Assembly: GCF_964355755.1 (NCBI RefSeq)
Contig: NC_092672.1
Location: 1,054,001-1,118,000 of the forward strand
DNA length: 64,000 nt
Direction of reading: 5' to 3'
Source: Antedon mediterranea
Lineage: Eukaryota > Echinodermata > Crinoidea > Comatulida > Antedonidae
Shown one piece after another: positions 2,177 to 62,460 of this stretch; within the stretch, counting starts at the first letter, position 1; every line of letters begins with the position of its first letter. Position numbers and translations under genes: made by a program. Below the pieces are notes generated by a model that was not told where the DNA came from, did not search any database, and saw only the letters and a list, made by a program, of their open reading frames with translations.

Positions 2177-3348
2177 TCCCAGAAAAGTGAATAGAAGAAC
2201 AATGCTAACATTTTTATTTTATTGAATAGTGCCTAAAAAGGATATTCCCATATTAGGCCATATTTACAGTAAGCATGGACTTAACACTGACCTCGCACTC
2301 AAGTATGAGGTCAGGATCAATGTTTGTTGGCAGTGCTACTAATCTCATATATTTATTACGGGTAATTAAATTGAAAAAAAAAACTGTAATATGTTTGAAC
2401 ATTAATTATTGTCTTTGTTTAAAGAAAAAATGTTTTTAGAAAAATTATTGTTAAAATTTTTTCTGAGAATAAATTAATAAAATCACTAATGTATTCAGTG
2501 TAGTGATCATCACAATTAACAAACATAAGTTTGTGTTGTGATATTGTATGTCTGTGTTTCCACAGCCCGAACAAAAATTACAATTATTTTGGCTGTGGAA
2601 ACATGACCCAAGTACTCAAATAAATTATGTAAACAATTACATATTTTTCTTATAATATAGTTGGTTGTTGTCAAGTAATATGGAAGTAATTGTTGATATA
2701 GATATCTAGATATATTTTCAGATTTCAATGTGATTAAATTTATTTAAAAAACAAAATTTGCTGTGTTTTGTAAATGAATTATTTCTTTTTTATCCTGTGT
2801 GACTTCTTCAATAGAAGACAGTTTATACAGAGGGCGCAGTACAGGACCATTCAGCACACCAGGAGACAATTCGCAATGCTTTTCAAATGGTGTGCATGTA
2901 CAATGTTTATACACGGTCCCAACAGCTTTACATCCCATTCGAAGGACGAGTAAAGAATCTAGCTTAATGATATTAAGATGATGATTTTAAAGACAAATAA
3001 AAATCAATGAAATCACACAGTACTTTATATTTTGGTTTATTAAAATAAAATATTGTTTATATACATCTTAATAATAATAAAAATTAAAAATATAATTGTT
3101 AGTAACTAAAAGAGTATTACAATATTAATTTAACATTCAAATTTAAAAGTAATAATTTACATGCTTAGTTCAAATTAGAAAAAAAGTAGCGATTGGCTAT
3201 AAAATATGTCTATACAATTACTGTTACAATTACATGATTTACACATTCCCTCTCACCTGGCAAATATATACTGTAAAAATAAGTCAAAGAACATCGGAGT
3301 AAATGAGGAATCCATCATGAGCAAATGTTTGTATGTTTGAACAACCTC

Positions 3349-3491
3349 TTAAGCTCTGTCTACACCATCACACTTTATGTGACAATAAAATATGATGTGC
3401 CCATATATGGACATGATATCATATCACTACCACATTTAGGTACCATAATCTGGGCACATCACACCAGTTTGATAGTATAGACAGAGCTTTA
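3349..3491. mobile_element. MITE-A copy 1
   Basis: Palindromic element with inverted ends TTAAGCTCTGTCTACACCAT and GATAGTATAGACAGAGCTTT. The centre has the family words GTGCCCATATATGGACATGA and ACTACCACATTTAGG. Confidence 0.8.
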
Positions 3492-3891: not shown

Positions 3892-6800
3892 CTAAAACCT
3901 AAGGGGCTTCACAGGAGAAGATGGAGACCTAAATGAATTCATTGGCAATGGAGAAGGGCTTCTTGCTTCCTGAAATAAAAAGAACGTACAATAAATATTA
4001 TTTCATTATCTAATATTGCACTATTTTATTTATTACATCCTAATAATATTATTTTTTTAAATAAAACAACTAAAAGATACTAATAATAATAGTGTTTAAT
4101 TTATATAGCGAAAAATGCCTCTATGCGCTGAACAAATCAAGTACCACATTAAGTTACTGAATTAAACAGTATGATAGCTCTAAAAACTAAATAATTGCAT
4201 AGACTTAGTAAGCAAGATGTAGTTACTGCAGTAACTGCAGTGGAGTAATTTTGACATTATCTCTAAAGAACCAATGTGATTGGTGTAAGTTTGTAAGAGT
4301 GATTATAATTTACCTTGAATTTTCGTTTCAATGCACGCGTCATTAGTGGCGTTAGTCCAGTCCCATTCTCATCCACGCATCGTCTTCTAAGTGGTGTACC
4401 ACCTGGACTGCGAGGAATGCTAACCTTCTTCAATGAAGTCCTAAAAGCAACTGCTTCATGCGGTAATCTGCAATCAGTAATCATTTATAATTTTATATTT
4501 TTTGAATTTACAAAAATGTTTGCATCTAAAGCCCTATCTACACTTTATGTGACAAACAAATTATGGTGTGTCCATATATGGGCATGATGATGTCATATCA
4601 CTACCATATTTGGGCATCTAAACATTTTAGAGTAAATACTGTACTAACAAAATTATGTTTCTTCAAATAATTTGAAAAAATTCTTACCTCTTTCTTAGTA
4701 CCACTTGGGTTTTAGGACTCACGTTTGACCCCAAACTAAATCTTCTCAATTTGACCTTTTGAAGGTCATTAAGCGATACTAATGGACGTCCCATACGATT
4801 ACCACGCCCAGAATCTGGTGTCTAAATAAAACATTTGAAATTTAAATCTTTAAATCTAAAACCAATTAGTCACTAAAAAGTACTTACAAGCTTAAATCGT
4901 AATGATTAGTTCTTAAATTTAATTGTTATAGTATCATGTGCTTACCTTTTTCTCAGACTCATTTCTGTTGACCTTTCTTAGTTTCACTTTACATAAATCA
5001 TTTGCAGAAATATGAAATGTTTCTTTGTCATTCTTGGTATTTTCCACTCGTCTCTGAAAGTAAGAGCACCCCAAAATACCAAAGTAGTCAAACACAGAAC
5101 AGATAAATAAAATAGTAATTAATTGATCAAAATCTAATAAGAGCTAAATAGTAAGCTATGTATGTATTGCTGGTCATGGAAAAGCTATGCAAACACATTC
5201 AACAACAAAATCTTACCTTCTTAACTTTGTTAAGAACCAACTTGAATTCTTTAACTTGTTTGATTGGCGGTGGGGGTGGTGGCGGTGGAGGAGGTGCACC
5301 AACAGGGGGTGGTGGTGCACCAGGAGGGGGTGGAGGAACGGTAAGTGGTACTGAGGCAGTACGTTTCAATGATGTTGATGAATTATCGGAATCTGACGTT
5401 GAATCAAAATGTGATTTTCCACAACAGCAATTTGCATCAGTCTTGGTTTCCTGATAATAAAGTATTCATTGAGTTAAGCTCTGTCTACACTATCAAACTT
5501 TATGTGACAAAAACAATGTGATGTGCCCATATATGGACATTATGATGTCACAGCACTACCATATTTGGCCATATCACTACCGTATTTGGGCATATCACTA
5601 ATTTACCATATTTGGGCACATCACTTTTTTTGTCAAACTAGTTTGATAGTGTAGACAGAGCTTAAGGTAAAATGTCAAAATTACACAGACTACTGCAGTT
5701 ACTACATTTTTTACACAAATAACGTATGATTTTAGTTTCAACATAGAGATATTATAGTGAACTGGAGAAACAACACTGAATAACCCCCATGGCTTATTGC
5801 TTTAAAACAAAGAGATCCGACGCGATAAGACAGGAAACCACGGTCTATTGATGTTTGATCAAGTCGACCGCCCGTACATGCTCTTGCCGTTGAGGGCGTA
5901 AATACAAGGAACCAGAGCTCGGGAACTAGAGTAGAAAACAACAATCGTTTTTGTGAGCATGCGCATTACTCAAGCTAGCTTTTTAAAAACTGTCGAGTAT
6001 AAAAAAACCGCAATTTTTTTCTGAACAAGTCAAAGAAAACCTGATTAAATTCCGACAATTTGGACGAAAGTTATGTAAGGTTGAAATGTTGGTAAGTTAT
6101 ACGTAATTTTGGATATTTTAGATAAATGAGGTAGTTAAAAAATGATTTTTAATGCATTTCTCATCTGTTCTCACAACTAAGACCTGTTTGGACATCGAGT
6201 GAAAATGCTATTTAATGTAAATATACTGATTTAACCCGTACCTAACATTCCCTATTTGAGTTATTTAAACCTTAAATATCACAATTTTTCACTATAATAT
6301 CTCTATGGTTTCAATCAGTAAACAGTGTATGTTTATAAAAAACAATAATTTGAAATCTTGATTTAAAAATATTACATGTATACTAATTAGTTAGACATAT
6401 TTCTACTGTATTTTGTGAGGTTCTCTAATGATCAGCTTCGGCTGGATGGACCACCCTCGTAAAATATTGTTGAAATAAATAATATAATTTCATTTTCCAA
6501 CTACCTTTTCTTGGAGGATTCTTTCCAGCGACTGCTCTAGTCGAAGCAGCTTAAGCTGAGTACTTTCTAGTTCTTTATGAATCTTAATAGATGGGAAGAC
6601 GATGTCCTTAGCTTTTTCAAAACTCTATACAATAAATGACAAAATATATATAACCATACAGTGCCAGTATAAATGTAACTAATACAGTCAACTGTCCCAA
6701 TACCGGACACCTTTGGGCTGGCCTAACATGTCTGGTTAAATCTAGAAAGTCTGGTATTCAGAATGTGTTTTTAATGGTAAAAATAAATTTGTTAGCCTTT

Positions 6801-8512: not shown

Positions 8513-10147
8513 ATGTCATCTTTTTTTGGAAGCCTAAAGCACAATTATGAAGCAATAAGAGAAGATGGTGATATTGCAACCATTCCATTCCTGGAAGCAT
8601 CCAAGGATTCTGTTATTGGTTTACTAGGTATTATATTAAGACAACACTTATTGTATTACATTCTGCTTTATTAATCCTTTAGCTTTCTGTATTGTCATTT
8701 CCTAAATAATAATAATACATAATAATATTTATTTGTCAAGTTAAAAAGTACACAATATACTACTTTAATTTACTCTTAACGAGAGGTTAAAACGGACAAT
8801 GCAAATAATTTAATAATCTTAAATATAATTATTAATATAAAATATGACGATCTGTGCTGGGGAATTGGGGTGGGTGGAGAAAATTGATTCAAGCCCAGAG
8901 TGCAGTTTATGTAATATTTTCCTGTTTTTTTCCTTTGACCGCTTTTATACGTATATAAATTTGTAATAAACTAATTTTCTTTTATTTGATAATTCTATAT
9001 TTTTCCAGATATTCTTGGTCCAACAACTTTTGCTCTTGTCAAGTCTGATGTTGGTGGCAACATTCATGTAAGAGATGGTTTATGTAAAGAGATTCCAGGA
9101 GTGTATCTTTATTGATTTGATGATTTGAATAAAATTATATTTCCACCATGACAGACATTTTCTCTCTTTTTATTTGAATTACTAGAAATTAAATCTGAAA
9201 TATGAGAAAGACAAAGAGAAGTTTGTGACACTAGGAGCCATGTTGGATGAAGAGAAAGAAAAGGATGAAAGTTGGGGCAAAAACTCCGCAACAGATGCCC
9301 TTATATGGCTCAACAGGTAAACCCAAGTTGCTAATTCTATTTTGTGTGTGTGCTGCATGGCAAACCAACCAACATTTGTAAAGCTCTGTCTATACTATCA
9401 AACTTTATTTGACAACAAAATTTGATGTGCCTATATGGACATGTCATATAACTACCATATTTGGGTGTATCATTGCCATATTTGGGCACATCACATTTGT
9501 TTTGTCAAACTAGTTTGATAGTGTAGACAAAGACAACACAAAGATACAGAACATATTCCACATTTGTTTTTAACAATTTTGTTGTAGGGGTCTAGGATTT
9601 ATCTGCAGCTTCATTAAGAATGTACTAGAGACAACGGCAGCTGATAAAACTCTAGAGGGCTGCATGTCAAAGGCTTACGAGACATCGCTGATGGAGTTCC
9701 ATGGTTGGATGGCGCAGAAAGTCACAGCAGTATGTTAAAATCATTAATATACAATATAAGCCCTATTAAGGGGACACCTCTTCTTTCTACACTATCAAAC
9801 TAGTTTGACAAAAAAAAGTGTGATTTTCAGATAGTCCGGTATTGGGAGAGTTTACTAATAATAATATTTTGTAACTAAAATGAGAGATGGTTCCAGACAA
9901 TTGTTTTTACAACAAGTGTCTTCCACATCCATTTCTTTCCAATTTCACAAGAAGTTTGACATTTTAATTTCAGCTAACATTTAAAGCACTGCCCTACAGA
10001 GAAACATTCATCTCATCTCTATCCAACGGTGTATCTGAGGATCAGTTCTTTGAAGAGGTGAAAGCCTATCAGCAGATATTGGAGCTGCATGTACAATCTG
10101 TTGAGAAGCTGTTTACAGACAGGGCCCTTGATTTAAAACACCGCTAA
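8513..10147 (+). CDS. GLTP: Glycolipid transfer protein
   Basis: Five exons: 8513-8627 (ATG), 9009-9067, 9186-9316, 9588-9729 and 9974-10147 (TAA). They total 621 nt and 206 aa, in phase at every GT-AG junction; human GLTP is 209 aa. GLTP is a cytosolic all-helical protein that extracts and carries glycosphingolipids between membranes. The glycolipid headgroup site is intact. Asp52, Asn56 and Lys59 (VKSDVGGNIHK) keep the spacing of human Asp48/Asn52/Lys55. Trp99 (DALIWLNRG) corresponds to human Trp96, and His140 (SLMEFHGWM) to human His140. The start gives MSSFFGSL and is the only suitable ATG after the upstream 3' splice site. Linkage with an ACAD10-like gene is reminiscent of human 12q24. 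Confidence 0.95.
9379..9533. mobile_element. MITE-A copy 4
   Basis: TAAAGCTCTGTCTATACTAT at the left and GATAGTGTAGACAAAG at the right, with the CTATATGGACATGTCAT and CCATATTTGGG core. It is wholly inside GLTP intron 3. Confidence 0.8.
9783..9826. mobile_element. MITE-A fragment
   Basis: Only one terminal part remains, CTACACTATCAAACTAGTTTG plus AAGTGTGAT. It then runs into GATAGTCCGGTATTGGGAGAG, which resembles the 6684-6857 element. Confidence 0.45.
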
Positions 10148-12250: not shown

Positions 12251-15200
12251 TCAAGAATAAATGGCTCTGACACAAAACGTTTCTTCATTTTTATCAAATT
12301 CATCGTTGATAAAAATCAAAATCTCAGTGCTACCACCCTGGTGACTTGGTGAAAACCGTAACCCTAAGGTACAGGTTTCTCCACCTCCAAGCTGCAAAAA
12401 CAAAACAATTTTTTTCAAACAAACAGTCAAAATCAACAACTATTCTCAAATTGTATATATTTATACACTCTTCTTTCTTAAACACTGTCTACACTTTCAA
12501 ACATTATGTGACAAAAAATGTTCATATAGACATGATGTCATATCACTACCATAGGCACGTCACAGTTTTTTTGTTTAAACTAGTTTGATAGTGTAGACAG
12601 AGCTTCAGAAAGATTGACCTTACTTCAATTCTTGTTTCTCTAAACTGTAGAAGGTCATCTCTGTTGCATCGGATGTTGAACACCTTCTTTTGTGGGTAAG
12701 GATTTTTGTAGGTGATTCTCTGAAAAAAATTTGGAAAGCAGTTGAAATACGTTAGTAACATCTTGTTGGAGATCAATACTGAAAAAAAATGTCCCTACTA
12801 CATTTCCTAAACAGTCCATACTACACCTCTATCAACCACTATTCCTACATATTCTGCCACATTACAGTACAAATAAAAGTTTGTGTATGTACCTTATTTG
12901 AGCCTTTCCCTCCTCCAATAGGCAATTGTAGTTCAAAAGCCTTTGTGATGATTGGTTGTCTGCATGATACGCATACCAACCATGAGCGAATCAGCTGATG
13001 GTACTCGTTGTCTAGCAACAGTAGTTAAGGTTAAATGCATAGTAGTACATAACATCAAATTAAAATAGGTCTATATTAATTAAGACATTGACAGATGAAT
13101 TATTTCAGTAATCAAGCAAACTAAGTTTATAAATAAAGCTAAGATTATAAATGCAATTTTCAAGAGACAAAATAAGTTAATCAGAGATGGCAAGTTGTAT
13201 ACCCTTAGAATTATTGTTCATATTACCATTAGCATGAGCATTATCTGTGATATTTTCAAATGAAAAATTAGTGTTATTTTCAGACCATTAAAAGGATACC
13301 GACAACATTAACATACATAAACTTGCTGCCAACAGCCATAGGACGAACACCTACATGAATCTCATGTACTGAGTTGGCCAACAACATGAATGGCTCAACA
13401 GGAGCTATCTGCATCTCCAAAGTGTGGGAGGAGAAAGCCTGCACCAGCCGTGATGCTTGAGTGCCTCTGAGAATCAATGAAAATCTGCTGGTTTGCCCTT
13501 CTACTGAATTCACATCCACCCTCTGAAGTGAATGTATGTAGAACTGCCAGGTTTGTAGAGGTCGTGATAGATAAGGGGTACTGGTGAAAAACAAATTTAC
13601 TACTATAATTCACAGAGTAAATAAATAAAGAAAATAACATATAACTCTTAAACAATTGATACTTACGAATATATTAAAACAAAGAACTTTTTTATCTCAG
13701 GTGAGCTTCCACAGGCTACTTTTAAAAAGACATCTTGAGGCTCCCCAGGTGACTGGAAAAATGTAAATGAAAAACATTACTAAACATGACACATGAAAAC
13801 ACACATGAATATAACATTAGTACAGTCATACTCATTTTATTGTGCTAAACATCATTAACTTACCACATTACGGGTACTGCAAATAACATTGTCATCACTA
13901 CATTTAACATACAATTTCTCAAGCCCTGGTCCACTAACAGGCACACCTGTTGACAACAACGCATTATTGAAGATTAAAATAATTAAAAAAATTACAGACA
14001 TGCTTTAAGCTCTGTCTATATTAGCAAACTAATTATTATTATGTGATGTGCCTATATATGACCATGAAGATGTCATAACACTTCCATATTTAAGCATATC
14101 ACTACTATATTTGGGCACATCACACTTTTTTTTTTCAAACTAGTTTGATAGTGTGGACAGAGCGTTAGATTGGCAGATGATCGTATACCTGGTAAATTCT
14201 GGAATGGTGGCAGTCTAATGCTCTTTTTTAAGAAGGAATGTTCCGGATGATGAAATCGGAATGTTTGGTCCAAGACGTGAGGCTGAGGTTCTACTTGAAG
14301 ACTTAAGACAGCGATGGATTTGTCGTCTTGTGTCTTGAAGTGCACTTTAAGTACTTTGGATTTTAGGGTCAGGTCTACTTTTTTTTCGTCGTATGGTGTT
14401 TGAATTTTAAATTGCGGTTTGATATCTTCATCTGGACCCTGAAATAGAAAAAACAAAAAATTACCTACACCCTCTAATAACATTAACTACACCTAATTCT
14501 AAAATTATCTCAACTCTAACAAAAAGCAAATTTTTAAACAACAAGGATACAATCTCCTCACAACACCAACTAGTTCGTCGAACATGTTGTTTCTTTTAAC
14601 TGAAAAATCAGGACTTGCCTGTTCTCCACACAAACATCGTAAAACTAAATAAAATTGCAAAGAATCACACTTACCTGTGGATTAACTGAATGGTTAGCCT
14701 GAAAACTCTGGTACTTAAACGGCACATTCACTTTCTCCTTTGGTCTAAGAAATATCTGAATACCAGGAATATCCCCCTTCTTATCTTGAGTGTTAAACAT
14801 GTTCTCTTCCATCGGGGTGTACGTCTCAAAAAGCTGCTTAAAGTGACGCCACTCTCGAGGCTCTGTTATCACACTAAATAATAATACCAAACATAGATAT
14901 ACAATTCAGTGGATTATTAAGTACCACTACAAGGAATTGACAATACACCTTCACAAGTTCAAATTCAAAATCAAACTTATATAGTGTACACCCTCGTTAA
15001 AAATAGATATGGTTGTAATTCATTGAATTATTAGGGAATTATTGGCAACAGTGAGTACACCTACCTAAGTTCTGTATCCTCAATTTGTATAGAGATTGTA
15101 TGATCTACATTATATGGATTCTTAAGTACAAACTCAAAAAACTCAGCATGTCCAAATGACGGATGAACTGTGTGTTCCGTTGTAATCACCGATTGCAGCA

Positions 15201-18200: not shown

Positions 18201-21200
18201 CTGAGATTTGTTTATAAGCACAATCAATTATAATACAGTTTATCCATCCTGTAATTGGCAAGTTAATGCTCGCTGTTAGATGCCTATGAAATAAAAAAAA
18301 AAAAAATCTGACCTTCAAATCTATTGCACATGACCCAATTAGCAGCAGTGAGTCTCCATCCCAGACGTCTATGTGTAAAGTTTGCTGGTACAGATACTTG
18401 AAGAATAGACTCCCTTCCCCAGACTTCAGGTAAGAAGGGTCTACATTGTATTTAATCTGGAAATAATAATATTACTACTGATGTAACATACAGAAGAGAG
18501 TCCATACAAGCCTCCTGTTGATAGGCCTGGGTGTATACTGGCATGACCATAGTGTTAAAAATGTTAATCCTCGATCGTTCTGGTAAAATTGTCTCTTGCA
18601 TAAGGGTGCCACTGTAAGTTGTCTACCAATACAAAATTTAATTCTAAACATTTTATTTGGGTATATTTTCTGTAAAATAATAAAAATACAAAATGAAAAT
18701 ATCAAAATAATTAAGACTGACTATCCATCCAGGTTTGTTGTCCACAGTGTTCTTGTTGCCTGATATTCTCTGTAGTACACAAGGCAAGGCTTGCGGATCA
18801 GCTGATAACTTGCCTTCCACATCGCCAAGTTGTAATCTAAAAAACAAAACATTACATTTGCCTCGATAAAGTTTTCCAAAATCTATATTTATTAACCATA
18901 CAGTGAAAAATATATGGTCATTATTATAACATGCTTAAGTAGCAGTACTCACCTAGCTGTTGTAACTTGGGGATACCTGTAGAATTGGAATGTAAAGAAC
19001 ACAGTTTTTGGTGTGTTACTCTGTGTCACTTGCGGGAACTGTAACACTCTACATAAAAAAAATGTGTTCTTTCAATAAATGATTATTAAAGTTGAAATAA
19101 AAATAAGTAAACCAACAATTTTGAATGTGTATGTAATATTAATAAAACACAGCAGTGGTACCACGATAGCATGGAACAAACTTCACATCCAATATAAACA
19201 ATATTGAATTCAAAAACTGTTATCACCATTTTTACATCTCAGTACCGATTTTTAATCAACTTACTTCATTTTGTATTATATTTTGTGCTTGTTCCGTACT
19301 GGTGTGTGTTTATGACAAACATCATTTCCAATTTTTATTTTTATAAAATATATTGAACAATAAAGGTTTTTGAATGAAACACAGCAGTGCTATACAATAG
19401 AAACATAAACCTCACAGAAAATCTTCTGATTGGTCAAAGGTCATAGGTTAAATTCTTATTAAAATCAATAACATGATTGTTTGTTAAAATAACTAGAGAC
19501 ATTTAATGAATAGGCAAACTGCCTTAAAATGTAACATGTTTTGAAAAACTCTTCTCATCATCAAAACAGAAAACAAAGCCTAGAATAACATGATTGTTTG
19601 TTAAAACATATAGTTCCATGGTTAAAATAACTATAGTGAGGCATTTAATGAGGCAAACTGCCTTAAAATGTGACATGTTTCTAGAAACTCTTCTCATCAT
19701 CAAAACAGAAAATAATGCCTAGAGTACTTATATACCAATAGTACAGGTTGTATGTAAATGAGGATTGTTTGTTATAATCCAAAAAAAATTTCCAAACATT
19801 TACTATTGTTTTATAAATCATACTGTCAAGTTATAGAAACATTTACTATTGTTTTATAAATCATACTGTCAAGTTATAGAAACATTTACTATTGTTTATA
19901 AATCATACTGTCAAGTTATAGAAACATTTACTATTGTTTTATAAATCATACTGTCAAGTTATAGAAACATTTGCTATTGTTTTATAAATCATACTGTCAA
20001 GTTATAGAAACATTTACTATTGTTTTATAAATCATACTGTCAAGTTATAGAAACATTTACTATTGTTTTATAAATCATACTGTCAAGTTATAGAAACATT
20101 TACTATTGTTTTATAAATCATACTGTCAAGTTATAGAAACATTTACTATTGTTTTATAAATCATACTGTCAAGTTATAGAAACATTTGCTATTGTTTTAT
20201 AAATCATACTGTCAAGTTATAGAAACATTTGCTATTGTTTTATGTATTACACATACAAAAATAAGATTTAGTACCTTGCAAAAGCTAATAACTGAATTAT
20301 AATTTCATTGCATTGTAACTGGTCAGCATTCTCTTTGGCTGGATTGAATGTCACATGATCTAATGGGTCAACAACCTCTGGAGGTTGCCCATGGCGATCC
20401 TTGATGTCTGGGAACCCTGCAGCATAAAGTCTGGCGTACGCTGCACGACTTAGTCCAGGACCGCTATGGGAAACAACAATATACTGATTAAAATGACACA
20501 GAAAATGAATACTGATAATGACAATAATCAATGATTATAATAGCAATGAAAATGTTTACTGATGAGAATGAAGCAAAATAGAGTGATATATCGGTACAGT
20601 AATACCAATGATTAGTGACCTACTAAGAAAAATGATTTTGATAAAAGGACAAAGAATTAGATAACAAATAGAAACAATTTCAATAATTTTTATTGAAATT
20701 TCAAGGACAATGTTTTTGATGGAGAAAAGTAGAATAATCAGAGAGAACAAAAAGAAGGAAAAAAATTAGTAAACAGAGTTTGCTTACCTCTTTTGGTTTG
20801 GTCCCATTGGCATGATAGGAGCATGTACTGGAGTGAAGGGTAGCTCCTCAAGCAAATTAGTAAACAGAGTTTGCTTACCTCTTTTGGTTTGGTCCCATTG
20901 GCATGATAGGAGCATGTACTGGAGTGAAGGGTAGCTCCTCAAGCAAATTAGTAAACAGAGTTTGCTTACCTCTTTTGGTTCGGTCCCATTGGCATGATAG
21001 GAGCATGCACTGGAGTGAAGGGCAGCTCCTCAAGCAAATTAGTAAACAGAGTTTGCTTACCTCTTTTGGTTTGGTCCCATTGGCATGATAGGAGCATGTA
21101 CTGGAGTGAAGGGTAGCTCCTCAAGCAAATTAGTAAACAGAGTTTGCTTACCTCTTTTGGTTTGGACCCATGGGCATGATAGGAGCATGCACTGGAGTGA

Positions 21201-24200
21201 AGGGTAGCTCCTCAAGCAAATTAGTAAACAGAGTTTGCTTACCTCTTTTGGTTTGGTCCCATGGGCATGGTAGGAGCATGCACTGGAGTGAAGGGTAGCT
21301 CCTCAAGCAAATTAGTAAACAGAGTTTGCTTACCTCTTTTGGTTTGGTCCCATTGGCATGATAGGAGCATGCACTGGAGTGAAGGGTAGCTCCTCAAGCA
21401 AATTAGTAAACAGAGTTTGCTTACCTCTTTTGGTTTGGTCCCATGGGCATGATAGGAGCATGCACTGGAGTGAAGGGTAGCTCCTCAAGCAAATTAGTAA
21501 ACAGAGTTTGCTTACCTCTTTTGGTTTGGTCCCATTGGCATGATAGGAGCATGCACTGGAGTGAAGGGTAGCTCCTCAAGCAAATTAGTAAACAGAGTTT
21601 GCTTACCTCTTTTGGTTTGGTCCCATTGGCATGATAGGAGCATGCACTGGAGTGAAGGGTAGCTCCTCAAGCAAATTAGTAAACAGAGTTTGCTTACCTC
21701 TTTTGGTTTGGTCCCATTGGCATGATAGGAGCATGTACTGGAGTGAAGGGTAGCTCCTCAAGCAAATTAGTAAACAGAGTTTGCTTACCTCTTTTGGTTC
21801 GGTCCCATTGGCATGATAGGAGCATGCACTGGAGTGAAGGGTAGCTCCTCAAGCAAATTAGTAAACAGAGTTTGCTTACCTCTTTTGGTTTGGTCCCATT
21901 GGCATGATAGGAGCATGTACTGGAGTGAAGGGTAGCTCCTCAAGCAAATTAGTAAACAGAGTTTGCTTACCTCTTTTGGTTCGGTCCCATTGGCATGATA
22001 GGAGCATGCACTGGAGTGAAGGGTAGCTCCTCAAGCAAATTAGTAAACAGAGTTTGCTTACCTCTTTTGGTTTGGTCCCATTGGCATGATAGGAGCATGT
22101 ACTGGAGTGAAGGGTAGCTCCTCAAGCAAATTAGTAAACAGAGTTTGCTTACCTCTTTTGGTTCGGTCCCATTGGCATGATAGGAGCATGCACTGGAGTG
22201 AAGGGTAGCTCCTCAAGCAAATTAGTAAACAGAGTTTGCTTACCTCTTTTGGTTTGGTCCCATTGGCATGATAGGAGCATGCACTGGAGTGAAGGGTAGC
22301 TCCTCAAGCTGTTCAGCATTCTCAGGTAGTACTGTACTTGCCTAATAAATCAATAAAATAAAATTCTTATATTTATTGATAGGCCTACCCTTTAGATTCA
22401 GACATAACATTCAACAATATATGTTTTACCATAGAACCCAACTTACTTATTTTTCAAGAAGTAAAGCATAACTTTTGTCAGCTTGTGTTGGTGAATGCAT
22501 ATTATATTTAAGGTAACCAGTACATGGGATTAATTAATTATAAGTATACAGTTATGAAACTGAGATGCATGACTGACTACCCAATTGGCAGGGCCTTGTT
22601 TGTGGTATAAAGAATGCAAGTATGACAAATTCATGTGTTTCTGTAAAATGGATGTTTTATCTAAACTCACTCAAATGCAGGACAGTTGGCAACTATAAAT
22701 ATATTTTTGATATTATTTTATTCGCATCTAACGGCAAGAAACTAGCCAATTACAGGATGGATAAAGTATTTTATAATTTATTGTGCTCATTTGAGGCTTG
22801 GGAAGTGGAGTTGAAAGAGTTACGGAGTAATTGTAAGAATACTACCTCAAGGTGGCGTATTTCCATTGGGTGCTTAGGCTGGTACGGATTAGGTTGAATG
22901 CTAGGATACGACTGCTGGTAAGGCTGTGGAGAGCTGCCTAGTCCTGCAGGCATAGTGGGCACAGTAGGAGGGCCTTGGCCCATCTGGGCTGTTTGGTAGG
23001 CTAGTTGTTGTTGTTGGTAATAAGCTTGACTGCCTGAAGTACTGTTACTTCTAAAAAGACCACAAAAACAAATTAATTAATGCTACATTCAAAAATATTA
23101 CAGGATTTGCAATTTTTACAAATCTGATTGCCAGAATCTTGGACAAGTATGATGACCACTTTAAAGCTCTATCTAGTTTGATAAAAATCTAGTTTGATAA
23201 AAAAGTGTGATGTGCCTAAATATGGTAGAGTAATATGCCCAAATACGGTAGTGATATGACATAATCACATCCATACTGTATATAGACACAACATATTTTT
23301 TTATCACATAAAGTTTGATAGTGTAGACAAAGCTTAAGACAATCTTTTCCAACAAGCTTATTCATTTTATCTAACAATTTTGCTATTTCCTGTTTCACTT
23401 TTACAAATTGAGAACCTGCTTTAATTGTTCTAAATAAATAATACAAAATTCACTTAGCAGCCGAGTCTGGGTTGAGAGGATCTTTATTTATTTTGATTTA
23501 ACCTCATTTATAGAGGGTGACCCTAAACAGTGTATGCTGACAATCAAGGGTCTCTCCTGATGAGAGATGATAAGTATCTGTGTGTGACAGAGTCTGTGTA
23601 TATACTAGTACTCGACTTAAAAGATGTACTAGACTCTTTTTACAGTGCACATAGGAATTTACAGATAGGCCCCACATATGATAGAAGATAGTCTGGGCTC
23701 CAGACGGAGTTTTGTAAAAATATAAATATTTTTGCACATATGGCGTTTCATACGTGTATTACTTGAGTTTGGATACTTTCAGACAAAAATCGCGGTCGAA
23801 ATGAAAACAAATAAATTTTTTAAAAAAGACAATAAATACAGACTTGGGGCAAGTCTAGATAGAAGAATGACAGCATTAAATGTACCTATAGGTCCTTGGT
23901 GTAGGCGATCCTTGTCTTGGCAAAGGGGGTCGTGATAAAATCCCTGGTTGCAACTCGCCTACTACCGATCCGTCAGTTGTTGTTTGTGAACGTAACGATT
24001 GCAGAGATGGATACTGCCCTCTATGATCTGATCTTACTGACTGTGGCGGAAAGATTTCATATGATGTATATTTAATTTTAGATTTTAGTAAAAAACATCA
24101 ATTTTAGTTAGAGAATTAAACAAGCTGGTGTTAAAACAATAAAAAACATTTATTATTACATCAAATAAAATATTTTTTAAATGTTAACATTTTGCGTTTT

Positions 24201-27200
24201 TATCATTAAAGTTTACTTTGTAAATATAAATTTTTGAATTGAAATGAAATACAATGAATTAAAAAGGTTAATAATAGAGACATAACTGATAGTAAAATAG
24301 TTGAAAATAGTCAAATGTTAGAAAACCAATGCCTAGACAAAATGTGTGATTAGTGGTTTTAGTATTAACTTTCATTCACCTTTGACCTTTATTTAAAATA
24401 TACATAATCAACTTTTAACAGTTGTTTATTATGAGAAAAACCTAAAGTTTCGTTCTCACTAGCACATAACACAAGGATGTAACGCAACGTAAGTGAGTTG
24501 ACCAATCACAAGCAATGGATTATTTGAACAGTTGCATTTCATTGGTCAACTCGCTTTTCATTAGTCAGCTCGCTTTTATCTATGTCCTTGCGTTCCGTCT
24601 TTAGTGGGAATCAAGCTTAAAGGAAACATGAATTGAGAACAAAATAAAGACAAAACAAAACTTAAAATCACAATGAACAATATATATGAACAATGCACTA
24701 CAAACAGAATGCAGAATAATGGGACTATACAGTACCTCTGGATCCAACTACGCCAACCAAAATGAAATGCAAAAAGAAGGAAAGAAAATAAAATAAATCT
24801 ACTAATAGCAAAGGGAATTGAGTCAATCTCTATAGTTAGAAAGAAAAAATTAACATTTTTATAAATTAATTTTTTATCAAGGCACACAGTTTTATTTTGC
24901 TTAGATGAATAAAGGATGAATTTTGAAGTGTAAAATATTTACTCTTCAATGATTGCTTAATTACAATACTATTTTCTTACCAAATGACCTTTGACCTGCT
25001 GGTCAGATAACAGAGACATGGGTGATGTAGGTCTTGACCCAGCAAGAGTCTAGAAATCAAACAATAAAGTACAGAAGAAAATGCAAAATAAAAAAAAATA
25101 ATATTAAAGCATCTATTCTTGTAAGCAGTAGAACACTGTAGAATAATAAAAGTGATAAAAATAAAATACGAAGCTTCAATTCTGTTAACTCTCCGATAAC
25201 TGGACACCATCGAGCCTGGCTCAAATTTAAAGAGTGAGAAATACTTTATACCTTCAAGAAAGTCTCTGGTATTTGGGAAAGAGTTTTCATGTGTATGGCA
25301 TTCAGGAGGGGAATTTTAGGGTATCTGATTTTTTGGAATGTTTCCATATTTCTGGATGTCCAGTTTTTGGAGCTGGAAATAACACAAAACTGTACTATAA
25401 ACCACCCAAAAAAGCTACTAAACACTCTAGGACACTATCATTTAATACAGATAGTGTATAATAATCATTACAGATAGTGTATATCGTTTAATCACCATAC
25501 CATACTACAATACTAGTAGTAATTGAAGTTACACCTCTACCACCAACAGTGAACCAACATTGAGTGCAAGTGTATTACTTATCACCCTCTATTACAGAAC
25601 ATTATCAAGTGTATTACTTATCACCCTCTATTACAGAACATTATCAAGTGTATTACTTATCACCCTCTATTACAGAACATTATCAAGTGTATTACTTATC
25701 ACCCTCTATTACAGAACATTATCAAGTGTATTACTTATCACCCTCTATTACAGAACATTATCAAGTGTATTACTTATCACCCTCTATTACAGAACATTAT
25801 CAAGTGTATTACTTATCACCCTCTATTACAGAACATTATCAAGTGTATTTTAAGTAAAAATATATAAATAATACTTAAATATGATGAATACCTTTAACTT
25901 GAAGAAAAACTGAATTTGGCCTCCAGCTTTTGGGGAATCTGCCACATCTAAGTCAGGAGGCTTAAACATAAGCATGTTGTCTGGGTTAAGTATGGGACCA
26001 CCTTGAAGTTGAAGTATGACACCAGCTTGGTTCTCTAAGTACACCGGCGACCATGACGCCCATCGTACACATACCTTCATTGTCTGGTTGCGAGTGAAGC
26101 TAGCTGAAAGCTATGAAATATATAGACATAATTGTGAAAGAGTCAAACATAATGCTAAGAGCCAAATGGGCTGAACAAAAAAGAATTTTAAAAAAGGCAG
26201 TAAAAGCGTTCTATATTTCTACTCCTATTTATTATCAATGGGCTTAAACTAAGGTTGTTTAGAGCGTAATAAAATATTAAGAGGGGTATCAATATAAAAA
26301 GACATTTTTTCACTAGAGTATAAAATAATAAAATATTATAACCAAGATGGTCTTATAAGTCTAACCTTTTTATTATCTTGAGCACCAGCCATTGGTATAT
26401 TAAGTATGTACTCTAAGACAAATACAATGGAATACAATGGGTCTTGTACTAGATCTTGTAGTTGTACTTTGTTCTTCATTACTAATGTAGCACCAAGACT
26501 CTCTCTGGCAACAAATTAATACAAATATTATTACAATCCAGAAAATGATTTTAACCGTTTGGCATCATTGATTGGGGAGTTGTTGAGCATAGTTCATTTG
26601 TTAACACAGTATTTAAAGTTTTCTCAAATAAAGTTAAAATAGTGTAAAATTTAAATTTTAAGCAATAAAACATATAAACTGAGAAATTATTTAATTGCCA
26701 ACAAACATAAAAGGTTTCCAATTTCAGATTTTTGTCACCTGTTGTTACTTTAAAGTTATTTCTTGGTCTATATAATTTCTATTTTCAATGTTATCAAAAC
26801 AGATCAACTGGTTGAAACACACCACTAATTATAAAGCTCTGTCTACACTATTAAAACTAGTTTGACAAAAAAAGTGTGATATGCCCAAATATGGTAGTGA
26901 TATGCTTAAATATGGTAGTGATATCACATCATTATGTCCATATATGGCACATCACATTTTTTCGTCACATATAGAAAGCAATAAAACAATCCCAGAATAC
27001 ACCACTACCTTGACCCAGCAGAAGACGGTCTGCCCTTGCTTTTCCTCATACTAGACCTACTCCCTCTGCTGCTGAATGCGTCTGTGTCAAGTAACACAAC
27101 GTGTGGTTTGTTAACATAACCCCAACCGTTGTGAATGCCAATTTGTAGACGTCGTTCAGAGATTGACACTGTGCCAGAATCTGCCTTCAAATCATCCTAA

Positions 27201-30200
27201 GACAAGAAATCATCAACAAACTATTATAAATAACATAATGATATCCTTATTAGGCCTAATACATATTTTAACAGTAAAGAACCTAAGTCTACTTATACAG
27301 GTCAAGTCAAATTATAATATAATTATTCTACTTTAACAGTTCATATATCTGTTCCTTTTGTTCAATGTGTGGAAAATAAATAAATGAAACAAACAAACAA
27401 ACAGTATCTACAGTTTTAGTTAAAATTGTACTTTTTTTAATTGTATACTAGTTGGAACTTACTCTGGCAATTCTGTCAGTGTTGAGCAATTTACAAAGTT
27501 CATCTTCAAATCTGTCCAATGTTGGGTATAGGTTTATCTGCAACCTATCTAAAGTTGCAGGAATCTTTTTTAGTGGCCTTGGTTTTCGGAAATTGTCAGC
27601 ACCTGAAAGAATAAAATAAATAAATTTTTAAACATTCAAAGGTACTGATTGTGTGTTGTTTAGGTAATTAAAATGCATACTACTGTACTAATAGGCATGT
27701 ACTGCCAGTACGAGTACTACTGTACTGTACTAATAGGCATGTACTGCCAGTACGAGTACTACTGTACTGTACTAATAGGCATGTACTGCCAGTACGAGTA
27801 CTACTGTACTGTACTAATAGGCATGTACTGCCAGTACGAGTACTACTGTACTGTACTAATAGGCATGTACTGCCAGTACGAGTACTACTGTACTGTACTA
27901 ATAGGCATGTACTGCCAGTACGAGTACTACTGTACTGTACTAATAGGCATGTACTGCCAGTACGAGTACTACTGTACTGTACTAATAGGCATGTACTGCC
28001 AGTACGAGTACTACTGTACTGTACTAATAGGCATGTACTGCCAGTACGAGTACTACTGTACTGTACTAATAGGCATGTACTGCCAGTACGAGTACTACTG
28101 TACTGTACTAATAGGCATGTACTGCCAGTACGAGTAGCAACATATGATGTTATCCTTTGTAAAATTCAATTGGAATAGAGTATTGAATCTTCATAGGTAC
28201 GACATGCTAGCATTAACATTAAAGAGGGCTTAATATGCTAGCCTTCCAATTCCAGAGGTATTTTAATATGCTAGCTATCCAAATCCATGGGTTTCATACC
28301 TATTTCAGGATCTGCTATGGCAACCCCTGGTACCACATCAGTGGCACCCACTATGACATTTTCTGGTAGGAGGTGCATAATCTTCTCCAAATAGCGATGT
28401 GACTTAATGGTGTAGGTCATGTGACAATCGGATATCAATACCGTGTTGGGGTCATCTAAAAGAAATATTGTACATGTTTAGTATACTATACACCACACCT
28501 TATACTGTATTAATTCAATTTAATTTAAAACAAAATGCAAAGTACAGCGAAATTATTTCACTATTATCCTTAAACATGACAAACCTGTTCACATAACAAT
28601 ACATACAATACATGCAAATATATACAGTATACACAATATACATAGAAAAAAATCAACAAACATAAAAAAAAAAGTTTGAAACAAGAGTTTGGGAGTGGAA
28701 TTTTTCTTTTATGATAACAAATTTGACAAGATTTGAACTCAAGACCCTGGGATTGGTGCATACTGTAAGCCTCTTAACACCAAACTAAATATGTTGCTGG
28801 ATTGGTAGTAATGATCTCATGCCTCACCTTCTATGTCACCATTTACAAAGAGTAGAGCTCTTGGTGTGCCGTGCATCAGATCAACTTTTTGACTCACAGC
28901 TGGCTTCCCATCCGATGAGTCTACAATATCTTCTGTGTATGTAATATAAAAAACTAATTTATTTAGAGGAACATTCAAAACTTTTAATTACATTTATAAA
29001 CGCACATTTTTGGAAGTGAAATAATTTTCTTTTTAAGTAAAGTAAAATTTTATAAGCATCATTTTAATAAAGACAAATTTTAAAAGACAACTTTTCTAAT
29101 TTCACTTGAAAAGTAAACTCAACTTTTGAAATTAAAAAATTAAAATTATTTATTTATTTATTTATTCAATTTCTGCCATATACATAACAAAGAAGACAAA
29201 ACAATTATAAAAGGAGGCACGGAAAGACCAAACAGGTGCTAAACACCTATGCTAGTTGGTCAACCCAGAACAGAGAAAAATAAATAAATTATGTGGCATT
29301 CTAGCATCTTGTATATAACTGTATTTATTGCTTAAATAGAAGACTCATATACCTTGTTCAAATGGCTTCAGTAATCCCCACCCACAGCTTATCTGTTGAG
29401 CCTCTCCATTCTTTGGATACATCGTTCCAACGACCTCAATAACGAGTACTATATTTGGGTCAGTCAAAGACGTATGGAAGTAAACAGGCTGCAATACAAT
29501 AGTAGTTGTTATAATTTAATTTCTATTATATTTTTAATAACTTTTTTGCATTAAGAGCATTTTCTCATCTCCTTCCTTCCCTTTAAGTGTTGCCATATTA
29601 AATTTCTTTTGAATTTGTTTAATTAATTAACTTTTGGAGCTGCAGGCATTCTTTATTTTTTATGTTACATTAACAGATGAAAGATGGAGGACATACAATA
29701 AAATGGAAAGACAATGAAAAAAAAACCTAAATTAGTAACAATTTCTAAATTCAAACAATATTAAAATTAATGTTTAAATTATTAGAAATAATATAATAAT
29801 ATTTATTTGGTCAACAATGAAAAACAACCAGATTCTGCACTCACGCCATAAAAGAAAATACAACATTATAGATAGATTTAGATGTAGAACACATTTAATA
29901 AAAACACAACTACATTTGTCTTATCATATATTATAATATAGTTTTTGGATTGCCTGCCTTTGCTAGCCTTATAACACATTTAATAAAAGTACAACTACAT
30001 TTGTCTTACCATATTATAATGTAGTTTTGGATTGGCTGCCTTTGCTAGCCTTATAACACATTTAATAAAAGTACAACTACATTTGTCTTATCATATATTA
30101 TAATATAGTTTTTGGATTGCCTGCCTTATAATACATTTAATAAAGTACAACTACATTTGTCTTACCATATTATAATGTAGTTTTGGATTGGCTGCCTTTG

Positions 30201-33200
30201 CTAGCCTTATAACACATTTAATAAAAGTACAACTACATTTGTCTTACCATATTATAATGTAGTTTTGGATTGCCTGCCTTATAACACATTTAATAAAAAC
30301 ACAACTACATTTGTCTTACCATATTATAATGTAGTTTTGGATTGCCAGTACTTGCCCCTTTACAAGCCTTCTTTGGTCCTTTCCATGTTCTTCCAAAAAA
30401 TCTTTTAAAGGTGACATCAAAGAGACTGAGTCGTATTTCATATTCTGGCTTCTTACCAGTTCCTTCCTGCAAGATTCAAAGTTAATAGGCGGATTGGAAT
30501 AAGTGGCTTAACGCATATGACAAACGCCCCTGGTTTAGTACTGCCACCATGGTACTCCACCATGGTACTCCTCCATGGTACTGCCACCATGGTACTCCTC
30601 CATGGTACTGCTAAGGGGCCCTCTAACTAACGCTGGGTAGTTGCATTGAGGCTGCTTAAGTTCTGGCCCCCCTATGTTTAGCCAGTGAGTGCTCATAGCT
30701 GTTATGCCACTGATATAATATAGTACTGTGTAAGTTGAGAAGGCAATGACGGTGACAGTGTAGCTTAAAGTATTGTCTCATGATAATTTTTTTGGTTTTT
30801 TTTGCTGAATATGCCATTTTAATGTCACATAATAATTATCCACTTCGACCAAAAATTGGATCGAAAAAAAAAATGTATTTACCTGAATAAACTGTAATTT
30901 AAAGCAAAAAATTTTCAAATTGGCTGCCAGCCAATGGGTTTTGGTGAAATTTAACCATTTATTTTGTGATTTTATAAGTGAGAACATTATTTTTTTTTTT
31001 TTTATACTACGCAAGTGATTAACTTTATTAAAACTACAAAATAACATTATTCAAAGTCCGATTTAATTAATCTTCATTTTTCATGTTTTTCGGGGACAAT
31101 ACATCTTTAATACAAAGCCATGTCTGGAGCTACAGTAGGTATTGCACCTGCCATTTATGCGAGATGATAGGAGTAAAAAGGGAAATTGTGGATTTGATGC
31201 ACTAAAATACTTGTTGGTGGTCTAACTGAACTTTAACACAGAGACCCCATTTAGAATTGGGGTGGCCAAGGGCCCAAACATAAGTGTAAATGGGGTCTTA
31301 GTGGGGTCAAAGGTTAGGTTTACATTACTACTAAGTGCATTAGCACAAAAAAGAGAACAAGAAAATAGATTAAAACATAACTGATTATGATGTACAGATT
31401 GTAATGTTTAACATTAATGTATAAATGTCCTATCTAATCAATGTTAGCCTTTCTTATCATAAAAAGCTGTAATTAATCAAATATCTAAAGATCATTCACC
31501 TAGTATGTTAGTATGTTAATGTGTACCCAGACTTTAGACCTCTTTCTAACGTTTTTTAAACTTACTGTTATTGTATTTTCAAATATTAGTTTGATTAATA
31601 CTGGTAATGTTATGGCAATCTAGTTTTAACTTCTCTTGGCAATGGGCGTGGCCTCGTATTTTTACTGATAGATACAGTAAATAATTTTTGGGGAAGATCC
31701 AGGGGTGGGGGGATGTTGGAATACAGTAGCGCTTGGGTCGCAGTAGCGCTTGGGTCGCAGTAGCGCTTGGGTCGCATGCTCCCCCAAAAATTACATTACA
31801 AAACTACTTTTTGATATCTACTTTTGACAGATTATTATTAAAATATTATTATGTTATTGTTAGTTGGATCCGTCCCTGAGCTCTAAAGCTCTGTCCACAT
31901 TATCAAACTTTATGTGACAAAAAATGTGGTGTACACATATATGGACACGATGATGTCATATCACTACCATATTTGACCATATATCAATACCATATTTGGG
32001 TACATCACACTACAGTATACACACCACATCAAGAAAACTGCCTTTTAAGTTATATAAATCCTGAAGAACTACAATAAATGCCACCCAGTTCTCCTTCCTG
32101 CTATTCACATAATCATATGTTAGAATCTTTGACAATGTCAAGCGGTCATGTAATTGCTTTACTTCATCCGCTGATTGGCGGACAGTTCTGACAACGGGAG
32201 GAGCTGATTGGTTGGCAGGTCTAGTGACGGAATGATGGCTTAAGCTTGACTGTTCTTCTACAGGGTAAATAACTGTTGTAGTGATGGGACTAGATGCGTT
32301 ATTATATTCATCGTCAAAGGTGACCATTTGGCGCGACTGCCTACCGCTATGTATGGGATCATTAAAAGGATTATTAGAATAATTTCCAGATGTAGAATTA
32401 CGGTAACCAAAATAATCTGGTGATGCGGCATGATGGGAAAATTCTTGTGTTGGACTTTGGCTTCGCTCATCACGATTTCTACTTGTTTGTTCATTCTTCC
32501 GATGTGATTGCGACTTTTTTCCAGTTTTCAATGATGTATGTTTTGAAATAACAATGTCTGGAATGACTGGCAAACCATTCCGTAGACTGGAAACTGATTG
32601 CTGCATATCCATTAATCCTAGGGGCACCTTAGAATATAAACCCCCAGGGGCACCTTAGGATATAAATCTCCACAGGCACCTTAGGATATAAATCCACAGG
32701 GACACCTTAGGGTATAAATCCCCAGGGACACCTTAGGGTATAAATCCCCAGGGGCAACTTAGAATATAAATCTTTTTCTCCGGTACCAATGATTGCGATT
32801 TTTCTGCGCGTGTTCTTCAATTGAGATCAAATTCAAGATGAGAAGCCCAAAAACTTTTGAGCATTAGTAAAAGTTTCTATTTGAAGTATATTGGTAATAT
32901 GTTTCTCATATAAATGAACATTTTTCATGAAAACTGGCTTATTATAAGCCAGTTGTGACCACTTTTTCACAGAGGCCTTTGACAACCCAGTGGCTTAAAC
33001 AGAGATTGTTTCCTTTTTGCGAAAACTAAACCGTTTTATTTGTTGTGGCTACATCCATTGTCAACTTCTTTAATTACTATAATACTGTATTAACTATCCC
33101 CTTTGTTCGCTGGTCTTAATATATTGATTGGTTCTGAGAGCTCTTTTCTGTAACAGCAGCATTCAATAAAAGATGAAAGTATCAAATCACTAGCGTATCC

Positions 33201-36200
33201 TTTGAAGTGTCAATTATCAAATAAACATTCAACATTTCATAATTCAGTTTCTTCTAAACACGAGGAAAAAAATATCTTATTGTATGTTAAAAATACAGTA
33301 AACTTTTCAAAAACGTTCCTTCTACTTATTTCTAAGCCTACATGTAGGAGGCTAGACTGAATATTTAGAGTAGCACCTGATTTATTGCTGTTATCTGCTG
33401 AGTCCACAGTCTAAAACCAATAAAGAAATTGATGAAAAATGAAATCTACTTTAGATTATGATTCTTTAGAAATGCAGCCTGAAAGCTGTAGTAAAACATT
33501 CTGTAAATTCCATAGAGTCCTCAATCTAATCAATTTCACAAAAACTTGAAAGGAAACCACAAAAAAACAGCTATTCAATGCGTAATGAAATTATTACGAT
33601 CAATACACAATTAAAAGTGTACCATATTCAGTAGCGTGTTACACATTATTTTTATTATTAATACTGAAATATGATGACATTTTCTGCCATTATCATTATC
33701 TTCTCGTTAAGATAATGCCTTTCATAAAATATGTTGCTTTAAGATCTATTTTCTTTGTGGAAATTTGTTAAGACAACAATCTTAAAGTTAAAGATGTAGA
33801 GTCTGATGTTTAAAGCACATATGTATAGTAGAACAGCATCATTGAGATTTTTTCAGATGTTAATCAGGGCCGGCCGTAGCCACCAGTACGGTTAGTAAGG
33901 TCTCAACTTTTTCACAGCGTGTTGCGAAAACTGCACCACTTTATTTCTTGTGACTACATCACTGTCAATCACTTACAATTTTGTGAAACTCCATGTCAGG
34001 TTATGAATCCACTGTCTAGTTTTATTTTTTCAACGTATAATATACCATATTTCTCTTCAAACTGACTCGTAATAAATCCTGTAAAAACTTTCTAGCAAAA
34101 AATCAATTTGTAATTCCGATAAATCAGTATCTTCAGAGAATAAATTAACACGAAAATTCCAAACTAGAATTATGTGAGATCACAAAAACACATTTAAAAA
34201 AAAAACTTTTAAATCCGACTGTGACGATTGAAATCATTAAACTAGAAACATAATTAAGTTGCCTATTGCGGATTGAGATGGTAATTAAAACACAATTCTA
34301 AAAGAACGGCTGATAAAAGGGCTCAAATTTGATCTCCTGATTGGCTGTTTATAGTGTGAGCTCATCCAATCAAACATAATCCTAGTTACAACTCAACACA
34401 AGAGTAAACAAAAGCTCTCTGTAAATAATCGTACAAAGACGGTTTTCTTTACTCGAGGGAAGTGTCAATAAGTTTGTTCTAATTTTGTTTTAAACCAATT
34501 CCTTTCTGGTAATACTAAACAAGAATTGTCTTCACACACAGGTTGAATAACAACATGAGAAATTGTTTAATGTAACTGGATACATCACCATGGTAACAGC
34601 TGTTAACAACTGTTAAACCAGCATACAAATAACTTAAGTTGTTATGCCAGAGTTACCTTTCTTTTTTATACCTCCATGCCTTTGCTGACTTCTCCTCAGC
34701 ATTTAATACCCTTTAATCCTGCCATCTTAATAGATAAGTTGATTACAGTAAGCTAGAGGTGAACCCATCCATAATTAAATGAATTGAAAGTTTCTTATGT
34801 AATCGAACACAGAAACTATAATAGGATCACCTCAAGGATGTGTGTTAAGCCCCCTCTTATTTATTTTATATACCAATGACTGTAAGTCAACTTCTAGTAG
34901 CATACATTATTTAAAATACGCGGATGACACAGAGCTAGTGAAACTGAATATCATGATGAAACCGTTTTCGAATTGGTGTAAGACAAATTGCCTCTTACTA
35001 AACGAAAAGAAAACCAAAGTTGATTTTCGAAAAAAAATGTGCTGCTCTGGCTCCCCTAAAAATTAATAATCAGGAAATTGAATCTGTTGAAAGCTACAAA
35101 TACCTAGGTATGACTGTTGATAACAAATTTAGCTGGGAGAAACACTGTAAAAATACTATAAAAAAAGGAAATACACGACTGTTCTTTCTCAGAAAACTGA
35201 GAAATTATGGGGTAGATAGAACTGTATTAAATTTATTTTACTCTTCGATTGTTGAGTGTGCTCACTTTCTGTTGTGTTGCCTGGTTCTGTGGATGTAGAA
35301 CAGAAGAAAAAACCAGATTACAACGAATATTAAATAAAGTAGGTAGGATCACAGGATCTAGACATAATCTGGATGACCTTTGCAACAAAATCATAAGGAA
35401 AAAGGCTATGAAAATATGCGACGACTCAAACCACCCTTTAAATAAACAGTATGTTAAAATGAGATCAAAAAGACTAAATGTGCTGAGATCGTGCAATAGT
35501 AGGGTAATGCGATATTTTTATTCTTTTGTTCCGTATTCCATTAGACTGTTAATGATATTGCATAATGTGAATTTTTTGATGTATTGCTGTTTTTTATTAT
35601 TTATATAGTCAATAGTAGTTTTATGTTCATACTTGTACATTGTTAAATAATATATAGTGTTTTTAAATATTGTAATTAATTATTTTTATATGAAACGTTT
35701 TATATATTTTTGTACTATATTGTGAAAAGCACTCAAAATATTTTCCTATGTGGACGAAATAAAGTTGAATCTTGAATGAATCTTGAATACTGTATACAGT
35801 TTACACACAATTGATCTTTTCATAAAAATGTACTTTGAACATGTTTCTTTTTACACTGTGTTGTTTGAAATGGGAAAAAACATTTGGGAAAACACTATTT
35901 CATGAATAACATGTCATTATTTTAAAATAAAAACAATATTCACACAATACATACACAGAGCTACAATAGCAACAGCTACAACCAGTACTGGTGGTGGTAA
36001 CTCAATTTGAGAAATGATGTCACGGCATATTGAATATCGTAATTACGTTTAATTAAGCATTTAATTCGGCGTAACACAATCAAGATGAGTTTACAAACCA
36101 AGGTTAGGAATTTGGGTCACAAACATTGTTAAACTACTTGAATTTGACAATTAAATCAATAACCATAATCAATGAAATATAATACTAATGTGTAGAATAT

Positions 36201-45862: not shown

Positions 45863-54063
<8,201 letters not shown>

Positions 54064-58163: not shown

Positions 58164-58332
58164 TTAAGCTCTGTTTACACTATCAAAACAGTTTTACAAA
58201 AAAGTGTGATGTGCCCAAATATGGTAGTGATATGCTTAAATATGGCAGTGATATGACATCATCATGTCCATATTATTATGGGCTCATCACATTTTTTTGT
58301 CACATAAAGTTTGATAGTGTAGACAGAGCTTA
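58164..58332. mobile_element. MITE-A copy 19
   Basis: TTAAGCTCTGTTTACACTAT to GATAGTGTAGACAGAGCTTA, complete. It is downstream of DFFB. Confidence 0.85.
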
Positions 58333-59680: not shown

Positions 59681-59684
59681 AACC

Positions 59685-62374: not shown

Positions 62375-62460
62375 GGAGCAACGTTCGTTCGATTTGGAGT
62401 AACGTTCGTTCGATTTGGAGTAACGTTCGTTCAATTTGGAGTGACGTTCGTTCGATTTAT
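62375..62460. repeat. 21 bp tandem repeat, about 4 copies
   Basis: GATTTGGAGTAACGTTCGTTC repeats with small changes. A single related unit (GATTTGGAGAGACGTTCG) lies at 63508-63525, on the far side of the LINE insertion. Confidence 0.85.

Follow-up and report, generated by a model that had tools for sequence, protein, structure and literature searches.

Minisatellites whose units contain splice sites are known from lancelets as 'mirage' minisatellites and occur there in Adh3, TnC, the globin genes BflGb6 and BflGb9, and PGBD5 (PMC3087553, PMC3902484). Splice signals (AG/GT) are present in many of their units, amplification may affect 5' as well as 3' boundaries, the central units are homogenised, and regular splicing is left undisturbed (PMC3087553, PMC3902484). 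A comparable case in human is the 31-bp VNTR of CBS, c.1444_1467+7, which has 16-21 repeats and lies at the exon 13/intron 13 boundary (PMC2630376); its HGVS name denotes 24 nt of exon and 7 nt of intron, so that each unit would carry a copy of the donor. Higher repeat numbers of this VNTR have been associated with reduced CBS activity (PMC5188458). In another CBS variant, 844ins68, an intron/exon junction is duplicated and one of the duplicated sites is used almost exclusively (PMC2630376). Tandem duplication of AG|GT has also been put forward as a route of intron gain (the Rogers model), for which a case is reported in potato RdRp (PMC4974935).

The locus described here lies in the window, the whole stretch of 64,000 nucleotides that was analysed. 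Whereas CBS 844ins68 duplicates one 3' junction once, the present locus is an array of donors. It resembles the Rogers model in its duplicated exon segments containing AG|GT, but its unit lies across an intron border that already existed, and there is no sign of a new intron. The gene gave 22 collinear minus-strand tblastn matches to human NPHP4 at 12.26-30.45 kb, including one at the array. Pfam and PDB searches for confirmation of NPHP4 gave no match, so that the name derives from the tblastn comparison; the gene is referred to as NPHP4-like, and the labels exon 13 and exon 14 come from the earlier sequence-only reading. The features of the array region are as follows.

20763..22309, minus strand: tandem array of 17 x 91 bp with a GTAAGC donor in each unit (Tandem Repeats Finder and unit split).
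22244..22341, minus strand: NPHP4-like exon of 98 nt, phase 0 in and phase 2 out, the 3' 66 nt of which are copy 1.
22238..22243, minus strand: donor GTAAGC of copy 1, the sole donor from which the next exon is read in frame.
20782..22152, minus strand: 16 further intact GAG|GTAAGC donors (22152 to 20787, step 91), intronic and putatively decoys.
20275..20463, minus strand: next coding exon, with the acceptor CCCATAG|CGGTCC.

The sequence-only reading had claimed seventeen tandem copies of an exon-intron junction with the donor GT kept throughout, and both points were confirmed. Tandem Repeats Finder gave a period of 91, 17.0 copies, 98% matches and 0% indels at 20763-22309 on the minus strand, and base-by-base splitting of that strand at GCTTGAGGAG yielded 17 uninterrupted units of exactly 91 nt, with GAGGTAAGC present and GAG|GTAAGC intact in 17/17. 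The first intron bases of the donors are at 22243, 22152 and so on to 20787 in steps of 91. The unit had been divided into 65 nt of exon and 26 nt of intron; the correct figures are 66 nt from the 3' end of the exon and 25 nt from the start of the intron, because the exon sequence ahead of the array does not match the unit until GCTTGAG. An acceptor-like word had likewise been assigned to each unit, which applies to 16 copies: TTTACTAATTTGCTTGAG was counted 16 times and is missing from the last copy, where the sequence continues into TTTTCC. Copy 1 is the consensus unit, and at two sites of the unit alignment copies 1-7 read consensus, G, A, G, A, G, A; this alternation points to amplification in 182-bp dimers as well.

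The array-bearing exon (22341-22244) has the acceptor TTATTAG|GCAAG. The intron upstream of it is about 504 nt long and follows an exon with the donor CACCTTGAG|GTAGTA; the downstream intron is 1780 nt long, of which 324 nt would remain if the 16 extra copies were taken away. Triple matches to GGTAAG number 15 in the 17-unit array and one in a second array of the same gene described below, where dinucleotide shuffles of the window lead one to expect zero. In a DNA search of the 354-Mb genome (18 contigs, with the window on contig 3), the 91-bp unit was found at a single locus; dispersed copies, as expected of an introner or mobile intron element, were sought genome-wide and none was found outside the NPHP4 locus. 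Clean minisatellites were also seen in other NPHP4 introns at 19794-20243, 25567-25849 and 27681-28136, with units of 43, 39 and 42 bp; they begin 31, 42 and 163 nt past donors.

The consequence of donor choice for the reading frame was examined by translating donors 1, 2, 3 and 17 with the next exon from 20463. Joining 22243 to 20463 leaves the frame open, while with every later donor the reading runs into TAA a single codon beyond the first junction, since these products share the stretch that follows it; the earlier claim that only the first donor keeps the frame is thus borne out. Signal strength was judged against 118 introns with phase-consistent GT-AG pairs, taken from dynein and NPHP4 exons of the same genome. 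The donor GAG|GTAAGC stands at the 91st percentile of the donors in this set, in agreement with the earlier description of an array built from a functional, strong donor junction. The acceptor-like word before each repeat reaches the 27th percentile of the called acceptors, and AAAAGAG|G, scored as an acceptor, lies under all 118 of them. The shortest of the 118 introns is 68 nt, compared with a gap of 32 nt between neighbouring exon-like segments and 123 nt for a non-adjacent pairing. On these scores, the repeats are predicted to offer strong donors, a mediocre possible acceptor and no ratchet acceptor, with neighbours probably too close for mutual splicing.

The array, which the sequence-only reading had called unusual, is not singular: five further arrays over splice sites were identified, one in this gene and four in dynein genes. 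The one in the same gene involves the following features.

29888..30345, minus strand: second donor-straddling array, 6 units of 71-85 bp.
30320..30475, minus strand: NPHP4-like exon, the donor of which (30319) is amplified in the second array.

Donors of the form AATATG|GTAAGAC are intact in this array at 30319, 30247, 30165 and 30009, and two have been lost, at about 30091 and 29924 (ATATATGATAAG). The others were found in 12 dynein heavy-chain segments (120 kb) of the same genome, in which exons were called by paralogue similarity; this sample held one donor array of 82 copies, two more donor arrays and one acceptor array.

C1:19357001-19371000 (segments L042 and L051), gene on the minus strand: dynein array of 82 x 68 bp.
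C2:40860001-40870000 (segment L046), at 2741-3431, 6113-6505 and 8763-9214: a 10-kb stretch of one dynein gene with three arrays, two of donors and one of acceptors.

The 68-bp unit of the 82-copy array has the exon end ...DKVAK|GTAAGTCAC (CKWVRAMDIYDKVAK then GTAAGTCAC) and the consensus donor AAG|GTAAGT; its intron is 5621 nt long and would measure 113 nt without the extra copies. The last copy reads AAA|GTAAGT. In segment L046, the donor arrays have units of 114 bp x 6 (GATAAG|GTAATAC) and 23 bp x 17 (AATATG|GTGAGTT), and the acceptor array 64 bp x 7 (TTTAG|GTGTTAAAA). The 114-bp units also carry an acceptor-like TTATTGCAG, which delimits 46-nt exon-like segments separated from their neighbours by 68-nt introns. 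In each splice-site array described, it is the outermost copy that continues into the unique exon sequence.

Other repeats and elements were observed in the window. A 35-bp unit with an inverted repeat (GTAGCTATGGCAACAAATGTTGCAGCTAC) is present in 48 copies at 37082-38747. A dispersed family with a 21-bp motif (GTGATATGCCCAAATATGGTA) forms short tandem runs throughout the sampled genome, in the window at 5554-5626, 14079-14123, 26876-26924, 47471-47528, 49288-49358, 50039-50088 and 58206-58255, and also in segments L040, L044, L052 and L056; it is probably part of a mobile element. Reverse-transcriptase-like open frames at 34803-35300, 58947-59683 and 62445-63205 suggest remnants of non-LTR retrotransposons.

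How often arrays take in splice sites was estimated, under a corrected null, from 17 dynein segments in which 13 arrays qualified. Four of these arrays have a splice site within the unit, against 2.2 expected (P 0.19), and three have a donor there, against 1.1 expected (P 0.10). Capture near the chance rate fits random birth followed by tolerance, and the most cautious interpretation is that the genome is rich in minisatellites, which are born irrespective of exon borders and are kept after swallowing one.

An attraction of arrays to donors was also considered. In NPHP4, 4/5 large arrays overlap a donor or begin at most 45 nt from one, and a permutation gave 8/15 against 1.7 expected; this test is biased, because NPHP4 prompted the idea and because donors close to arrays had been entered manually, and the attraction is unproven. 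In five new dynein segments, chosen before looking, 0/3 arrays were within 50 nt of a donor, and a null restricted to dynein genes and based on a more complete exon list showed no significant excess (4 against 2.2 expected, P 0.17). Genome-wide counts of tripled donor words gave no evidence of enrichment either: GGTAAG gave 3523 against 2602 for the reversed control, a count inflated because coding zinc-finger repeats carry GGTAAG, and AGGTAAGT gave 361 against 1599 for the control, with 1477 of the control hits on one strand. A large zinc-finger-like gene cluster was seen at about 8.09-8.51 Mb of C1, with 84-bp coding repeats that each contain GGTAAG. Tandem arrays with full AGGTAAGT donor words were seen at C1:416891-418691 and C1:17483664-17484321.

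The array is very probably a minisatellite whose founding unit chanced to span an exon-intron junction, that is, a splice-site 'mirage', which is tolerated while the first donor is used. The repeat unit spans an authentic boundary, copy 1 being the end of a coding exon; splice signals are present in the units (17/17); and the authentic boundary is the edge copy with the rest intronic, as the frame is kept only with 22243. Replication slippage or unequal exchange would have multiplied 66 nt of exon end and 25 nt of intron to 17 copies, 16 of which would be inert pseudo-junctions within the intron. Recognition by the spliceosome would span the exon itself, which is short, from the acceptor at 22341 to the first donor at 22243 (98 nt), and the first donor would be chosen almost always, so that the extra donors leave with the intron; the array would be tolerated rather than functional. 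Use in splicing is most likely confined to the first copy. This view follows from the undisturbed splicing of the lancelet mirages (PMC3902484) and from an exon-defined minigene with two identical strong consensus 5' sites 52 nt apart, in which the upstream site was exclusively used (PMC9225289). Of two identical donors, intron definition favours the downstream one (PMC9225289), and exon definition cannot safely be assumed at the birth of every array, because the dynein intron measures 113 nt without its extra copies. The CBS VNTR is linked to lower activity, and junction arrays may on that account not be fully silent.

Several other explanations can be weighed against the tolerated mirage. 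If U1 snRNP were spread over the 17 donors and transcripts from later donors met TAA and were degraded, the array length could tune NPHP4 output. The equal strength of the 17 donors (91st percentile), the immediate stop after any later donor and the lower CBS activity associated with more repeats of the exon 13/intron 13 VNTR (PMC5188458) are in favour of such a copy-number-sensitive regulator, one of the roles suggested in the sequence-only reading, and owing to the CBS literature it is kept as a minority possibility. However, regular splicing is intact in the lancelet mirages (PMC3087553, PMC3902484), identical tandem donors in an exon-defined setting give the upstream product only (PMC9225289), and dynein genes hold similar arrays near the chance rate, with no sign of a gene-specific role; regulation by copy number is considered unlikely. 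The units might instead generate pseudo-exons, with TTTACTAAT as the branch point and TTGCTTGAG|GAG as the acceptor, so that 59-nt segments would be spliced in and joined at GAG|GAGCTACC. Such inserts would be mostly out of frame and in frame in multiples of three, three or six in series keeping the frame without a stop. The percentiles of the acceptor-like word (27th) and the donor (91st) would allow this, but the branch-point-like A is only about 10 nt from the AG, and the 32 nt between adjacent copies fall below the 68-nt minimum of the 118 introns, so that splicing would need to skip units. The earlier suggestion of pseudo-exons is thus unlikely to apply to adjacent copies and may apply to rare non-adjacent use, which length (123 nt) would allow, with an acceptor-like word at the 27th percentile; as an explanation of the array it is very unlikely.

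Two further explanations are extremely improbable. Recursive splicing would take AGAG|GTAAGC as joined 3'/5' sites and remove the array in steps of 91 nt. AG stands immediately before every GTAAGC, and such removals would therefore be sequence-neutral. The sequence-only reading had named the array a recursive-splicing substrate, which the sequence does not support: CCAAAAGAG|G scores under every called acceptor, as does GGGACCAAACCAAAAGAG|G, which has no pyrimidine tract ahead of it, and AG is missing altogether from the ATG|GT junctions of the second NPHP4 array and of one dynein array. The near identity of the copies could also come from misassembly of a single junction; against this, the six positions that vary between the copies do so in a pattern, divergence and donor loss are seen among the units of the second NPHP4 array, and unrelated genes hold similar arrays with different units.

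The variation between copies bears on how a tolerated mirage may be renewed. Among the six variable positions of the 17 NPHP4 units, five are synonymous changes at third codon positions and one is I>T; with a synonymous expectation of about 23-30%, this gives P 0.003-0.011, on small numbers and post hoc. Four arrays analysed together gave 7/11 synonymous (P 0.003-0.02, also on small numbers and post hoc). This pattern suggests turnover of the array through the functional edge copy, a mildly novel point: as internal copies become the edge copy, damaging variants would be lost. All six variable sites are in the 66 exonic nt, and the resulting invariance of the 25 intronic nt has a probability of about 0.15 by chance and is not significant. 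A more far-reaching scheme, in which minisatellites of this genome regularly capture donors, arrays renew via the edge copy as internal copies serve by turns as the true exon end, selection on both protein and donor disciplines all copies (5/6 differences synonymous, 17/17 donors intact) and array length modulates the proportion of productive transcripts, appears rather doubtful.

With 17 to 82 identical strong donors in a row, these arrays in conserved ciliary genes provide natural experiments on the choice that the spliceosome makes among equal sites. A first-donor rule under exon definition predicts one product, whereas an intron-proximal rule predicts nonsense transcripts, and since one genome holds several arrays with ancestral introns of 113 to a few hundred nt, the rule is testable by long-read cDNA. 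Junction-array loci would also lend themselves to measuring how unstable minisatellites are under coding constraint.

In comparison with the known systems, the NPHP4 array shares with the CBS VNTR a tandem repeat across an exon-intron boundary and differs from it in that the CBS unit is shorter, polymorphic in copy number and associated with enzyme activity. Compared with the 3-6 units of lancelet BflGb6, there are 17 copies in NPHP4 and 82 in the dynein gene, and the genes concerned here are NPHP4 and dynein heavy chains. In marker searches of the genome, which has a GC content of about 33%, let-7 was found, and COX1, bantam and the GFP family were not; the bantam and GFP-family searches gave no match in any control genome either, so that no extension of the mirages beyond lancelets is claimed. 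The architecture itself has already been published for the mirages and the CBS VNTR, and the NPHP4 array is a further member of this group, notable for its copy number and for its recurrence across genes.
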